The notes beneath the pieces were generated by a model. That model was not told the origin of the DNA, made no database searches, and saw only the letters and a list, made by a program, of their open reading frames with translations. From the NCBI GenBank assembly GCA_000697455.1, contig JNET01028801.1, positions 1 through 36,386 on the forward strand: a stretch of DNA of 36,386 nucleotides. Direction: 5' to 3'. The translations under genes and the position numbers were made by a program. The stretch comes from Basidiobolus heterosporus B8920. Its lineage: Eukaryota > Basidiobolomycota > Basidiobolomycetes > Basidiobolales > Basidiobolaceae. Of the stretch, positions 1 through 21,047 are shown in pieces. Position 1 is the stretch's first letter. Every line of letters begins with the position of its first letter.

Positions 1-2612
1 GTCCCATATGACCATGTAAGTGTCACCATCGAGATCACCACCAGCACATTGACTAGGCAGATCCCTTGAGCCTTGGGTAGAAAAGGTAATGCAGTTTACA
101 AGATGATGTAGCTGTGGACAATCAACGGCCTCAACCATGTGAATATCTCCTGGATGGAGGCATGGGTTTCGAACCACCATCGCAGGACCAACATAGCTTC
201 TAACGACGCTCGGGTTCTTCGGGTCAGTAAAGCGAACGAATATTTGGTTTTCTTGCAGAGTATGCGTTTCATCCAAAACACCCATCAAATGCGCACCCAT
301 CTCGATGGGTATTCTGGCACGTTCTTTGATGTCTCTTAGAACCTGCACCTTAAGAAGGCTCAGAAGAGATTTGGTCATGTTGTCTCCTGACATCAAGAAC
401 CCTGCTTGAATCATTCTCCTCAATACATTAGTGATCCAACCAGAATTGTAATGGAGCGCCAGAAATTTCAATGCCAGTTCCCTATCATCGATGATCCCAT
501 CCATTTCTCGTAAGAACTCTTCTTGCATGTCTACAAACACTTTGTCCGGGACTCCCAATGTAGTCAGCAGTATAATGACTTGTCGGTTCAAGTAAGCAGA
601 CATGAAGTCCGCGATTCTGATGACCTCCAAGGCATGATGATCAGAGTTGAACTTTCGTTGACTTGGCCGCAGTTGAACCAAGGAAGTGCCCATACTATCG
701 TCGGGTGCAACTGCAAGAACGCCCTTATACCCACCGAGACGAATTTGGAACGCTCCGGGAACAGTGTTTTTTTGATAGAGATTGGCAATGTCCGTGGCCA
801 AAGACAAGGCAATCTTGCCAATTCCATCTGAGAACACGTAGCCGTTGCGTGTGACATCCGGAATCTCTTGAATATGCTTCTTGCTGAGAGTCTTCACAGC
901 TCTCGTACTCGAGAAGCATTGCCCCATGCGTGCAGCATGTTTGGCAACGTTCTTGATTTCGCTGAAATCACCCATCCATCTACGTATGAAGTCGGCATCA
1001 ATACCATCTGGGGTATCCGCAAAAAACCAACAGCTATGCTCACGGAGCTGTGAAGTAGAGAAGGCCAGAAATCGATAGTGACGATTCCCAATATAAAAGC
1101 CTTCGCTCAATACCTCTTTGATATGATCAAATATTGGTTGATACACCAACCGATTAGTGCCTATTTTCTCGAAATGTTCATCAGAAAAGGTCACTCGAAT
1201 AAAGTGATCTTGATGCTGATGGAAATTTCGCAACACTCTGTTCGACAACTCTAGCGTGGGTGGTAAAAAATAGATTTTACTTGGTGTGACAGTTACTCTA
1301 CGAATCCACATTGTGTGTGCGGGGATTTCTTCTAACTGGACCAAGTGGTTGCTCAGCTCTAACATTACCTTTTGAGAGTAGGCTAAAAGATCCTCGATTG
1401 AGTCTTCGGCCTCGGTCATGCGCGTCAATATTTTGTTAGCAACGTCTATATCCAAACTGTTCATAAAAGCAACCCAATCTTCAGTCAGACTGTACAAGCT
1501 TATTTTCTGCGCGCATATCAGGCATTCCACTAAATAGGATAGTTTGAATGGAAGTAAGCTGTGAATGTCAACAACCTCCCGCTTTGTCATATCCGCTACT
1601 GAAGGGAATACACCATTGCTTTCGTTGGATAAGAGATTGTAGCGCATCAGACCATCTATCGAATCTTTGAACGATTCCCCGTAAGCATTCATCAGAGGAA
1701 CGCTGACTCGATACGCAAAATAGTTGCCGATACTGATTCTTGCATCATGGCCTACATTACTGTTCGATATTTGATCAGTGATGTAAGTAGCCCGTTCCCA
1801 CATATTCTCTTCGTTCCAACTCTCCGGGGTTCCCATGCTGAGTGCTAGAGACTCGTGCCGATGCCACATGAAAGGTGAGCGGGACAGCTGTATATACAGT
1901 ACGTACGTATTTTCATTGCTGTCGTCCAATACGATTCTTTTACGGATATCATCGAATCTTATTCCGATTCGGTATTCATCATGTTTGTGGTGGAACCTTA
2001 TGGACATTATTCGTCTACCATAGTCTACCTCAAACACACTCTTATCTGACGGCTTCCAACCACTCAAGAAAGTGTTGTTACCCGAAAAAGACCCCATCTC
2101 AAAAGCGATAGCATCGAAGTGGACCTGAGATTTAATATATTCTCCTCTTTCTCGAAGGTTTAACCTATCGGCAGTATGTTTGGTGAACCCGATCTGCAAA
2201 ATGTCACCTCTACGACCTAGGTGAATTGGCTGTAGTTCCTGATCCAAGAAATCTAAAGAAACTGGTGGAGGTCTGAAATCAATAATGGCTCTTTTACTTC
2301 TCCCAGGCTGAGTATTTTTCAACACAATACAAGCGTTAACGTTGCCCCAGGTAGAGAAATAGTTCTTTATATCGGCGGCATCCATTGTGTTAGGTAAACC
2401 TTGAACAAAAATCCCTAATTCGTGGAGGCCATAAGTGCTTAGGCAACTGAAAGAAAGCGGGCCAGGATATAGCTTCTTAGGTCTATTACTTCCCGGGAAG
2501 CACAGAGTCAACTTTTTATTAAGCTAAACTGAGTTTGTTAGTTTCGCAACAACATATTCCACATTCTGACACTGTTACTGGGAAAAATCTACCCTACCTC
2601 AGTGTCTAACAT
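1..2612 (-). CDS. RNA-dependent RNA polymerase (eukaryotic RdRP/RDR family), 3' end outside window
   Basis: Makes double-stranded RNA from single-stranded templates in RNA silencing. The frame is open without interruption from 2523 down to the window edge (841 codons). The catalytic loop DLDGD (residues about 835-839, bases 22-36) sits in CAGGDLDGDTY, the hallmark of the family; upstream are the conserved segments GQCFSST and TRNGYVFSDGIGKI. The N-terminus looks like an RRM: IFVQGLP resembles RNP2 and KRAIIDF resembles RNP1 (residues about 40-90), as in plant RDRs. The proposed start is ATG at 2612, a five-codon first exon (2612-2598), then an intron (2597-2524, GTAGGG..TTTAG) joining in phase 0; starting instead at the in-frame ATG at 2385 would cut the RRM. 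The last few hundred residues lie outside the window. Family is certain; the first exon is moderately supported. Confidence 0.93.
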
Positions 2613-9680: not shown

Positions 9681-10071
9681 GCTCTTGATTGAATTCGATT
9701 TGCATTTCAGATTAAACCAATTTGCTTCTTATTTATACAAAATTAGCTGATTTGAGGTAGAAATAAACAATAGATAATTTCATAATGTTGAATATTTGTG
9801 GATAGACTAAAGCGGTCAGTATCGTTTATTAGTGTTTCATTTTGTTGGCCATGTTCAAGTTTGTTGTAGCATATGATTATAATGCGTATCAAATTATTTG
9901 AGTTTACCTCAATTTCAGTAGTCTTTAATACTCTGGCTTTAGGGAAGTACTTTGTCGGAAAAGCTTCAAATAATTCATACTCGATTGTTGAACAACTACT
10001 AAGCTACAATCTCTATGACACATATTACTTGCATCTAATTTTTGCAATTTCTTTTTAGCGTGCAGGTCAAA
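9681..10071. other. Intergenic spacer
   Basis: AT-rich DNA between two genes on the same strand. A pyrimidine tract ending in TTTTTAG at 10038 just before the next start could be the acceptor of a 5'-UTR intron. No other feature seen. Confidence 0.4.
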
Positions 10072-11373
10072 ATGGCTGAATTTAACCAGCAGAAAATATT
10101 AGCTTGGAATTCACAGGTGCTGGTTGAAGACGACTTGGAAGTACAGCCAGTTAGTCTAGGTGGCTTACACCGAACCGGAAAAAATTACAAACCAGTTAAA
10201 GAAGAGGTTGTATTGAAACAAAGAGAAAAGAATACCCTCTACAGGAGCCAGAAGACTTTAGCGCCTTCTAGACGTGAGAATTCAGGCATAGAATCTACTG
10301 AAAGCTACAAATTTAGTCATGTTAAGAAGAACTCAAAGCTGAGAAATCTTACTCTGCACCGTCCAAGTACGTTGGAACGTGATGGCAATTCAGAAACGAC
10401 CGCTGTAAAAGACTCCCGTGTAGCTCAGGATAAAAACCCATTACTCTCAAAGTACAAAGTATCAGCTTGGCATACTCTAGGGCCTGAAAAAACCAAGTCT
10501 ACTGAAGGAGGAATAGAAGCCGGTGGCCTGCATCGTATAGGGAAAAATTACAAGCCACACTCAGTTAATGTGGTTTCTAAAGATAACGATTGCAACCCAA
10601 AGAAACCATTGTTAAGAAATGAATCTCCTAGGGTTGAAATATCTAATTGGTATAAACTTGGAGCAGAAAACGAAGTAAATGATTCTGAAGTAGGATCAGG
10701 CCAGCTACACAGGCAAGGGAATAACTTCAAGCCCCATAATGTAGAGCCTAACAGAGGTCGTGAAAGAATGCGAAATCAACCAATTCCTACTTCTAACCAG
10801 ACTGGTCAGCGAGCGAAAAATATAAAGAGCTCACCGAATGCTTTCCAAGAACAAAGTAAAGCTCAAGAGGTAAGTGAATTCATTGACTGTTTTTCAGAGC
10901 TTTCAGTAGATGGAACCGAACGAGAATGCACTCTATTCAATGATGATGTACACGGAGTAGAGTTTTGGGACATTCCGGTGGAAGAGAACAACAAGGAGAA
11001 ATGTGCAACGAAACAAGACTTTACGGTTAATTTGAGTCAAGAATTGGAGGAAACAATAAGCCTACCTTCAGAGCTGAAACGAGCTGATCAAATAGAAAAC
11101 CTCGAAAAAGGGTGTATTTCTGAATGTACTTCACCTGCGACATTAGATGATTTTTCTTTATCGATACCGGGATCATGTCAAGGGAATATCATACTATTAC
11201 TAGAAATCGAGATTCATGATGGTAGAACAAAAACAATCGCACTACACGAACATGATAATCCCCTCGAGGTTGCAAAGCGATTCTGTCAAACTTGGGATAT
11301 CCCTGGTAGAGATGTAGTTGCGCGTCTTGCTCGGCTTATTACCCTTCGGAAAGCACAAATCTCTACACTATAA
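10072..11373 (+). CDS. Unknown protein with three W..LHR-G-N-YKP modules
   Basis: No family recognised; 433 aa in one exon. Three copies of a module can be seen in the N-terminal half: a Trp (residues 12, 133, 193) followed 19-20 residues later by LHRTGKNYKP, LHRIGKNYKPH and LHRQGNNFKPH. The segments between are basic, polar and probably disordered. The middle (about 270-370) is acidic. The C-terminus is a compact predicted alpha/beta segment, LLLEIEIHDGRTKTIALHEH followed by DNPLEVAKRFCQTWDIP, which resembles short C-terminal domains (charged strand pair, DxP, A..FC..w) that I recall at the ends of other fungal proteins. The start is the ATG after the TTTTTAG; an upstream non-coding exon is possible. 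Function unknown. Confidence 0.85.
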   Translation: MAEFNQQKILAWNSQVLVEDDLEVQPVSLGGLHRTGKNYKPVKEEVVLKQREKNTLYRSQKTLAPSRRENSGIESTESYKFSHVKKNSKLRNLTLHRPSTLERDGNSETTAVKDSRVAQDKNPLLSKYKVSAWHTLGPEKTKSTEGGIEAGGLHRIGKNYKPHSVNVVSKDNDCNPKKPLLRNESPRVEISNWYKLGAENEVNDSEVGSGQLHRQGNNFKPHNVEPNRGRERMRNQPIPTSNQTGQRAKNIKSSPNAFQEQSKAQEVSEFIDCFSELSVDGTERECTLFNDDVHGVEFWDIPVEENNKEKCATKQDFTVNLSQELEETISLPSELKRADQIENLEKGCISECTSPATLDDFSLSIPGSCQGNIILLLEIEIHDGRTKTIALHEHDNPLEVAKRFCQTWDIPGRDVVARLARLITLRKAQISTL

Positions 11374-17315: not shown

Positions 17316-18093
17316 CTAAAGAATGATACACTTTTTTTTACGCTTATCCGAACGTCCAGGGGTTTGTCGATTAATCTGTCGTACGAGTTCAAAAAACGCT
17401 TCGTCGACATTGTTTCTTTTACGAGCCGACGTTTCGAAGAAAGTGGCTCCGGGCCAGTGTTGTGCTAACTCCGAGCCAACCTCACGCGAGACACATCGAT
17501 CGCTCTCTAAATCCGATTTATTCCCTACAAGTACAGTAGGAACCTAATCCAAAAAAGGTGACCAGATTAATTGGGTTTTCTATAGCAGGACAGTGGTAGC
17601 CAAATATGGTATCTGAAGGTTCGAATATAGAAAGCCGACTAATTAAATTTACCTGCTCTGAGTCTTTAACTCGAACGATTTGCTCTCTTAGTTCAGCTAA
17701 ATCGTTGAAAGTAGCCATAGAGGTGATGGAATAGACTAGTACAAAACCCTGGCCATTTTTCATGTAAAGGTCACGCATAGCAGTGAATTGTTCTGTGCCA
17801 GCAGTATCCAAAATCTCTAACATGCATTGCTGTCCATCTATCTCTACTTGTTTTCTGTAAGAATCCTCGATGGTTGGATCATACTTTTCTACGAATATTG
17901 ATTGAACGAATTGAACGGTCTAAAATAGAGAACAGTGGGATAAGCAACAAGTAATAAATACTTGCAGACACAAAACTCAAGAGTGGGAAACAGAGGAGCA
18001 GACGTGAACTTGAGGAAGGGTGTAAAATATACTTACCAACGCAGATTTACCAACACCACCAGAACCAAGAACAACTAATTTGTATTCACGCAT
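17316..18093 (-). CDS. RAP1: Ras-family small GTPase, Rap1/Rsr1 type
   Basis: GTP switch protein; Rap/Rsr1 proteins direct polarity and adhesion-like signalling at membranes. Three exons: 18093-18037, 17919-17653, 17543-17316, 183 aa. P-loop GSGGVGKS (10-17), switch I effector [13 protein letters not shown] identical to Rap/Ras, G3 DTAGTEQF with Thr in place of Ras Gln61 (the Rap signature), G4 NKSD, G5 ETSAR (SAR where SAK is usual). The tail is basic (DKRKKK) and ends in the prenylation box CIIL; the final Leu predicts geranylgeranylation. [20 protein letters not shown] and [14 protein letters not shown] match animal Rap1 closely. Start ATG and intron after codon 19 are unambiguous. Confidence 0.97.
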
Positions 18094-18879: not shown

Positions 18880-21047
18880 ATGCCTTCTGAAGCTGAAGTT
18901 GAACGTGAAGGTATAGACCCAGAAACTCCAAAAAAACTTTCTAAAAACTCCCTTACGCGTCACCTAAGCCGAGAATTACGAGCACGTTTAGAAGAGTATT
19001 ACACTTGTAATCCTTACCCCAGTCCATATGAATACAATGTAATTTGTGATGATTGTTCCATTGGACAAGAGGTATGTCGCGTTCGAAAACATCCAAAAAA
19101 TAGCACCAATATTCATTTGCTTCTCTTTACTTGAAGTCTGCGAAGGCTTGGTTCATAAACAGACGAAAAAAAGCCTTTAGGAGTCAGGAAAGTTGTCTAA
19201 GCATTACTGTTGTAGAAAAACTTCGCGCTTTTATATTGGCCACTACTTCTCCTACTGATGAACAACTGACTACTGTTGCAGAGGAGCTTGGCACTACCTC
19301 GGAGACAGTGAGAGCTTTTTGGAAACTTTATTATCCACCAACCAACCAACGCGTCGATCACCTTACTCCTACAGATTTTGAGGTCATTAATTCTAGTAAG
19401 AAAAATACACTTTCTCCTTACCTCGAACCTATTTTCCAGCAGAATCAGTATCCGTCTAAACAAGAGTATACTCGAATTGCTTACAAGTTGGGAGTGAATA
19501 GGAAGGTACATTGAATCTACCCCACCCCACACCCTGAGCATATCTCTTTAACTTGCTTAACTCCATCCAGAAAATCACTTTATGGTTCATAAACAGACGG
19601 AGCCAATTACGTCAGAAAGGGATCGAAATCATATCTCCGGTAGTTTGTAGAGCTCCAGAAGGCGATACAGAAAAGCTTAATGAATCGTGTGAAAAAGTTT
19701 ATGCCGATACAGTCTATCCGCCAGTTTCCGTAATGGAGCAGATTGCCAGTGAAAATGAAGTAACTCTACGAGTAAGTGTAGTTTACGATGATTTGAATTC
19801 GCTCAATATATCTAACTATTTCCTCGTTGGTATTAGAGAGTCAAACGCTGGTTTTCAAAACGACGCGAACGTGATAGAAACAATGGGATCGATATCAAAC
19901 CGATGCTAATCAAGTACACTCCTGAGGCGTCACAGACTTTGCACGACTATTACGAACAAACACCATTTCCAAGTCCTGAACAGTTACACGAACTTGCAGA
20001 ACACCTGAAACGAAGTGAAAAGGTAAGAGATTCAACCTGACTCTTATATACGCTATATCAGTATAGTAACTTTATATTAGTCAGTCTCCCAGTGGTTTTA
20101 TAGACGTAGGGCTGAAGATCGCGAGCGAGGAATAGACTTGAGTCAGCATCCATTGAATCCCCATCCTAAAGTGATTTCTGAAAAAAGAAAAGCTGACGAG
20201 AAAATTGTAAAGCCCAAAAACAAACGGGCAATCAAATTGGCTAGGTTTCCGGAGTCAGTTGTAGAAGCTATGAGTAAGCTTTACGATGAATGCCATGGAT
20301 ACCCCACTTCTATACAACGTAGAGAGTTGGCAGAGCAACTTGGTATCGACTATCTGAAAATCAATGCTTGGTTTCGTGAACGGCAATCAAGAGTAGGCCA
20401 GTACAGTGACCCTCTTCATCTGGCTGTAGAGGAGCTACACAAGAAGGTCAAATACCCCTCTCGGGAGATGATTCAAGAACTTGCAGATCAATACAACGAA
20501 ACATTCCAGGTAAGGGCAGATGCAAGTGATGTCCGAGCGTTTCTTTCAAATAACAGACATTCGTTTTCATTGCAGAATATCGAGCGATGGTTTAAAGAAC
20601 TGCGTCGTAGGGACCGTAAATCCGATTTGGAGAATCGAAGAGAGGGTCACTCATTATTTAGTCCAGAAGTGGTGGCTGAGCTAGAGAATGTTTTTGAACG
20701 TACCCCGTATCCCAATCATCAGCAGATCATTGAACTCGCTAACCGTATGGACTTGTCGATCCATGCTCTTCGTGGTTGGTTTACCAATAGGAGATTAAAT
20801 GGAATAACGGAAAGTTCAGGTAGGTGGCTAAAGATGGTTTCCATTCGAATTCGTTTACTTACTCGTACGCTTCTATTCTCTAGTGGCAATTGATTTATCC
20901 CAAACAGCAACCAACTTGCCAAAATCGATACTGTTCTTGGCATTGAATCGCCGCATCCAAGATCTTGAAAACGAGTTGGCGGAGCGGCAGCAAAAATTAA
21001 TCAAGCAAGAACCTATGGGACTGGCCGTAGATTATGCGCTGATGTAG
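18880..21047 (+). CDS. Protein with eight tandem homeodomain units
   Basis: Predicted nuclear DNA-binding protein; target unknown. Seven exons: 18880-19071, 19137-19505, 19571-19771, 19837-20022, 20081-20509, 20576-20819, 20884-21047; 594 aa. Each unit has helix 1, a loop with YP or FP (NPYPS, NQYPS, TVYPP, TPFPS, HGYPT, VKYPS, TPYPN), helix 2 and a WF recognition helix. Trp48 equivalents are at 69, 192, 259, 321, 413, 464 and 527; unit 2 is degenerate with FW at 125-126. The spacing from the helix-1 aromatic to Trp48 is 28 residues in most units, the normal 60-residue homeodomain (not TALE). Asn51 is kept only in units 1, 3 and 8 (WFINRR, WFINRR, WFTNRR). A short coiled coil (NRRIQDLENELAERQQKL) ends the protein. 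Five introns fall at the same point of a unit, phase 0. I know no named family with this layout. Confidence 0.9.

Follow-up and report, generated by a model that had tools for sequence, protein, structure and literature searches.

A gene on the plus strand of the window (the whole 36,386-nucleotide stretch of DNA analysed here) encodes a protein with eight homeodomain folds arranged head to tail. The array is real and conserved and, within the literature searched, apparently undescribed for fungi; the many-homeodomain kind of protein is known from animals. The residue with which homeodomains read bases is lost in the best preserved units of the array, which suggests a new use of a classic DNA-binding fold.

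Gene model and the eight units

The gene at 18880-21047 (+ strand) was modelled with seven exons, the splice sites being chosen by eye, and yields a protein of exactly 594 aa (pI 8.8) from a CDS of 1785 nt without a frame break; the six introns are all GT..AG and 58-66 nt long. Exon 1 (18880..19071, aa 1-64) encodes the N-terminal tail and helices 1-2 of unit 1; exon 2 (19137..19505, aa 65-187) encodes helix 3 of unit 1, the whole of unit 2 and helices 1-2 of unit 3; exon 3 (19571..19771, aa 188-254) and exon 4 (19837..20022, aa 255-316) each carry a linker between helix 3 of one unit (3 and 4, respectively) and helices 1-2 of the unit after it (4 and 5). Exon 5 (20081..20509, aa 317-459) holds helix 3 of unit 5, a long basic linker, the whole of unit 6 and helices 1-2 of unit 7, exon 6 (20576..20819) holds helix 3 of unit 7 and the whole of unit 8, and exon 7 (20884..21047) encodes a C-terminal tail, in which one long helix is predicted, and the stop codon; all exons lie on the plus strand.

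Two orthologues were found, K493DRAFT_303721 of Basidiobolus meristosporus (594 aa, 77% identical to the window protein) and K7432_000157 of B. ranarum (588 aa, 74% identical), with 74% identity to each other; both are colinear and full-length and have the same unit order. That the two identities are nearly equal suggests a Basidiobolus, or a close relative of that genus, as the source of the window. These colinear proteins, themselves gene predictions, support the spliced order of the exons. The B. meristosporus model has an extra five-residue stretch, starting with Val, exactly at the position of intron 4, which looks like a splice-site difference in annotation. We regard it as very improbable that the gene model is an artefact that joins at least two transcripts or follows a decaying pseudogene: the model does rest on genomic sequence and not on RNA, introns 3, 5 and 6 have no in-frame stop if retained, and intron 5 also keeps the frame, but full-length colinear proteins are annotated in two other species, the CDS is unbroken, and six of six introns have canonical GT..AG ends.

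The homeodomain profile PF00046 matches the whole protein in seven stretches with 205 bits (E 9e-62), and units 1 and 3-8 cut out singly score 26.0-49.5 bits, each above the curated cut-off of 22.9. Five of these units, all on the plus strand like the others, are split by an intron: unit 1 (aa 31-79, 18970..19181, W69, Asn51; 31.8 bits alone) by intron 1, unit 3 (aa 154-202, 19404..19615, W192, Asn51; 46.1 bits) by intron 2, unit 4 (aa 221-269, 19670..19881, W259, Lys51; 30.3 bits) by intron 3, unit 5 (aa 283-331, 19921..20125, W321, Arg51, with Lys in both orthologues; 41.2 bits) by intron 4, and unit 7 (aa 426-474, 20408..20620, W464, Glu51; 26.0 bits) by intron 5. Unit 6 (aa 374-423, 20252..20401, W413, Glu51 and Gln53; 32.0 bits) has one additional residue in loop 1, and unit 8 (aa 489-537, 20663..20809, W527, Asn51) scores 49.5 bits. 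Unit 2 (aa 87-135, 19203..19349) is degenerate, with F-W in place of W-F and Leu at 51 in that register, and gave no PF00046 match when searched alone; folded alone it is predicted to form a three-helix bundle (pLDDT 81.7), for which homeodomain or homeodomain-containing chains make up 49 of the 50 Foldseek matches listed (the remaining one is TnpE), with a best E of only 0.057. It is the predicted fold, and not the profile, that supports counting unit 2 as a homeodomain.

AlphaFold predicts eight helix triplets and one C-terminal helix for the whole protein (pLDDT 66), in a model whose pTM of 0.29 is a low confidence at which the packing of the units cannot be read. The three-helix fold is predicted for the array protein, and the preliminary description, which had seen eight tandem homeodomain units in one fungal protein, agrees with both analyses: seven units lie above the PF00046 cut-off alone and eight triplets are predicted. 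Its estimates of geometry hold as well; it had put the units 50-90 residues apart, and the tryptophans of successive units are 51-92 residues apart, and the spacing of 28 residues that it gave for the helix-1 aromatic and Trp48 in nearly all units is found between residue 20 and Trp48 in six of the seven WF units, with 29 in unit 6 and with His as residue 20 in unit 7. The Homeobox_KN profile (PF05920) gives 112 bits for the whole protein; taken singly, five units pass its cut-off of 24, but all five score higher with PF00046; TALE membership was rejected, as the three extra residues between helices 1 and 2 are absent at a residue 20-W48 spacing of 28 (29 in unit 6). Pfam HTH_72 also exceeds its cut-off (35.3 bits vs 27), which we take as overlap with the homeodomain fold. 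Among the homeodomain matches listed by Foldseek, no fold match spans more than two units.

Outside the units, a basic linker (aa 350-371, 20180..20245, + strand) joins units 5 and 6 and is a candidate nuclear localisation signal, picked by eye from the sequence. The C-terminal helix (aa 554-581, 20922..21005, + strand), predicted by AlphaFold, is a possible coiled coil and might conceivably pair two copies of the array protein; its heptad score is no better than that of shuffled sequences, 473 (window protein), 798 and 802 of 2000 shuffles scoring as high. An I/V-K-Q-E motif at the end of this helix, which we take to fit the sumoylation consensus, is kept in three species.

Our protein searches returned no relatives beyond the two Basidiobolus proteins; these searches required shared 5-residue words and set length limits, and two of them scored no more than the 7998 candidates with the most words in common while one had 954, so that remote arrays elsewhere among the fungi may have escaped them. 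Viral contigs were scanned as well and gave no relative. The preliminary description knew of no such layout in fungi, and a search of open-licence literature for fungal homeodomain arrays indeed found no description; the orthologues, however, were already in databases under the names 'hypothetical protein' or 'Homeobox domain-containing'. The main text of the Basidiobolus genome paper (PMC7466969) has no 'homeo', and term searches found no such array in the available portions of a survey of fungal transcription factors (PMC5415576) and of a Conidiobolus genome paper (PMC9026835); in the latter, homeobox genes are described as raised during conidiation. According to the available part of PMC4901127, the usual number of homeobox genes in a fungus is below a dozen.

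The setting of the gene is a normal eukaryotic nuclear one: ten neighbouring frames were scanned, and for nine of them Pfam gave matches at E 0.001, which include RNA-dependent RNA polymerase, Syf1, Ras, ATP synthase alpha/beta (V/A type) and calreticulin. The Ras-family gene (17316-18093, minus strand; Pfam match on its middle piece) is oriented divergently from the array gene and lies about 790 bases upstream of it. At the start of the window, a frame for a eukaryotic RNA-dependent RNA polymerase (1-2523, minus strand) runs off the edge and also has an RRM match and a fungal PH-like match below cut-off. A 444-aa frame at 10039-11373 (plus strand) has no Pfam match and contains three repeats like G-G/Q-LHR-x-G-x-N-Y/F-KP.

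Residue 51, conservation and DNA contacts

From unit 1 to unit 8 of the window protein, residue 51 in the Trp48 register is N, L, N, K, R, E, E and N, the L of unit 2 being read in the F48-W49 register. Both orthologues have the same residues except for Lys instead of Arg in unit 5, and the class of residue is the same in all three species. Asn51 is therefore confined to three of the eight units (1, 3 and 8), the same three in each species, and these units keep W48, F49, N51 and R53 throughout; in the window protein Arg5 is found in none of the eight units and Arg53 in six (1, 3, 4, 5, 7 and 8). By comparison, the genome has eight further homeodomain matches, of which seven keep Asn51 (six WFQN and one TALE WFINA) and the eighth, on contig C92, has Arg51. 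The units had been called standard homeodomains, a term that suits their fold but not their DNA contacts.

Conservation across the three species is not spread evenly over the array. Invariant positions number 39/49 in unit 4, 39/49 in unit 5, 44/49 in unit 6 and 41/49 in unit 7, vs 28/49, 32/49 and 36/49 in units 1, 3 and 8, 24/49 in unit 2 (23/49 in the other register) and 106/202 outside the eight units. Units 4-7, all without Asn51, are the most conserved part of the array; pooled, they have 163 of 196 positions invariant vs 96 of 147 in the Asn51 units, a difference whose significance is overstated by Fisher's p = 0.0002, since in three sequences of common ancestry the positions are not fully independent of one another. 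This higher conservation could stem from any constraint.

From the residue classes, the conservation, the unit order shared by three species and the basic character of the protein (pI 8.8, basic linker at aa 350-371, net positive helix 3 throughout), we infer a nuclear DNA-binding regulator with a division of labour among its units, in which a few base-reading heads accompany a conserved block, units 4-7, that would touch proteins or the DNA backbone; we give this reading slightly less than an even chance. The regulator, so far seen only in two Basidiobolus species and in the near relative from which the window derives, would consist of eight head-to-tail homeodomain folds. Units 1, 3 and 8, which keep Asn51, Trp48 and Arg53, probably read bases, although a classic TAAT-type reading is not expected because they lack Arg5 and because position 50 varies between species (Ile/Arg/Arg in unit 1, Ile/Thr/Thr in unit 3 and Thr/Asn/Asn in unit 8). 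Units 4-7, with the fold kept and Asn51 gone, would most likely contact proteins, or the DNA backbone without specificity, and the array would then act as a scaffold of spaced units held on DNA close to either end; the tail helix might, at most tentatively, dimerise the protein.

Every unit has a helix 3 with net positive charge, reaching +7 in unit 4, as would befit an array in which most units contact one long DNA site and the specificity of units 4-7 is altered by Lys, Arg or Glu at 51. The single-homeodomain gene on C92 in the same genome also has Arg51, and the double homeodomain of DUX4, which reads DNA with two heads, is the top match by sequence as well as by Foldseek. However, Glu51 is expected to disfavour DNA, which bears on units 6 and 7, and the W-W spacing of 51 between these two units leaves almost no N-terminal arm; we judge such a composite reader unlikely, and the preliminary description's suggestion of a reader of long composite DNA sites loses ground where units 2 and 4-7 are concerned; its alternative, that the protein acts as a scaffold, may hold.

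The same counts, Asn51 in three and Arg5 in none of eight units together with the strongest conservation where Asn51 is missing, would also fit a pure protein-binding scaffold in which, inside the cell, no unit would read bases and the homeodomain fold would have been turned into a repeat for protein contacts. There is a precedent, for this reading as for the division of labour, for a protein-binding homeodomain within an array in the second homeodomain of ZHX2, whose DNA site is disrupted and for which a homodimer was seen (PMC2893186, available in part). Yet W48, F49, N51 and R53, kept in units 1, 3 and 8 of three species, would not be needed for a role away from DNA, and we think a pure scaffold improbable. 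A related proposal, that the array represents a fungal family in which the homeodomain serves as a structural repeat, its central four Asn51-less units being architectural or protein-binding and base-reading units standing only outside them, seems to us possible, if doubtful.

Introns, paralogues and growth of the array

Each of introns 1-5 interrupts its homeodomain (units 1, 3, 4, 5 and 7, respectively) after residue 43 and in phase 0, and intron 6 lies after unit 8. Of 200,000 random placements of six introns, 41 put three introns at the same offset and none put more than three there. Exons 2-5 are symmetric (phase 0-0) and hence copyable without a frame shift. An R..GI(D/E)-like motif follows helix 3 in each of units 3, 4 and 5 (shuffle p 0.005, 0.001 and 0.0004; 21 pairs were compared, so that 0.005 alone is not significant after correction for 21 tests) and is largely retained in both orthologues. 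Because five of six introns stand at one homeodomain position and units 3-5 share this linker motif, the array probably grew by tandem exon duplication, each copied phase 0-0 exon bringing a linker flanked by the last helix of one unit and the first two helices of the following one. Chance retention of an ancient common intron in a number of units explains the pattern less well, since one ancestral homeodomain bearing that intron would still need duplicating.

In a tree of the units, which the preliminary description had proposed, each unit forms one group across the three species, but the tree, with few columns and long branches, does not give the order of duplication; unit 2 was entered in the W48 register, one residue off the preferred F48-W49, so that its place is unusable.

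Paralogues were sought in the 8.1-Mb, 428-contig assembly, perhaps incomplete, in which the window is contig C58. The array protein gave one match outside its own gene, a weak one on C128 (E 4.8e-4). Pfam found ten homeodomain matches in the genome, two of them being the array gene; in the 7.5-9.5 kb stretches around the other eight, a search with a profile made from the array units gave a single homeodomain per stretch, and two further fragments of 22-23 aa were set aside at E 0.14. In seven of these other homeodomains the match runs through the residue-43 position in a single open frame. The eighth belongs to the single-homeodomain gene on C92 (L024:3060-3400; Arg51 in WFSRRR, extra loop 1 residues), in which many small exons may follow downstream, as judged by eye; its intron lies after residue 44, one codon later (by eye), and an intron common to this gene and the array was rejected.

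A conserved array with signs of exon-by-exon growth, whose best preserved units are those that have lost the base-reading residue, offers a tractable case, separate from the animal ones, of a DNA-reading fold becoming a structural repeat.

Comparison with known systems

In plant HD-Zip proteins a homeodomain is followed by a leucine zipper helix; the helix at 554-581, which also follows homeodomains, might be a zipper, but its heptad score does not exceed that of shuffles, and there are eight homeodomains here. The DUX4 double homeodomain is the first PDB match by sequence and by Foldseek; the sequence match spans only residues 158-269 of 594, and the eight units of the array, vs the two tandem homeodomains of DUX4, rule out DUX membership. 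HOCHOB of Caenorhabditis likewise has a homeodomain pair whose first unit may have lost DNA binding (PMC4448998, in part), but the Homeobox-cysteine loop-homeobox profile scores 11.7 bits vs a cut-off of 26.3, so that membership in this family was also rejected.

Like ZHX1-3, the array protein has several homeodomains, and in ZHX proteins at least one, that of ZHX2 already mentioned, has a disrupted DNA site. Unlike these proteins, which have five homeodomains preceded by two C2H2 zinc fingers (PMC2893186, in part), it matches no zinc finger family in Pfam up to E 10 and was not counted among them; HOMEZ, with several homeodomains and leucine zippers, is itself without zinc fingers, according to the available part of PMC2211742.

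The preliminary description had named the ZHX, ZFHX and DUX proteins of animals but missed the closest case, CEH-100 of C. elegans, in which 12 homeodomains are tightly packed, one of them only 55 residues long (Hench et al. 2015, PMC4448998, in part). Together with CEH-99 and CEH-83, CEH-100 is the nearest known kind in layout. The fungal array resembles it in having many divergent, packed homeodomains and little else, a likeness of kind, in layout. Unlike CEH-100, an animal protein for which the available part of the same source gives no obvious orthologues even in other Caenorhabditis, the fungal array is kept across three Basidiobolus-type fungi.
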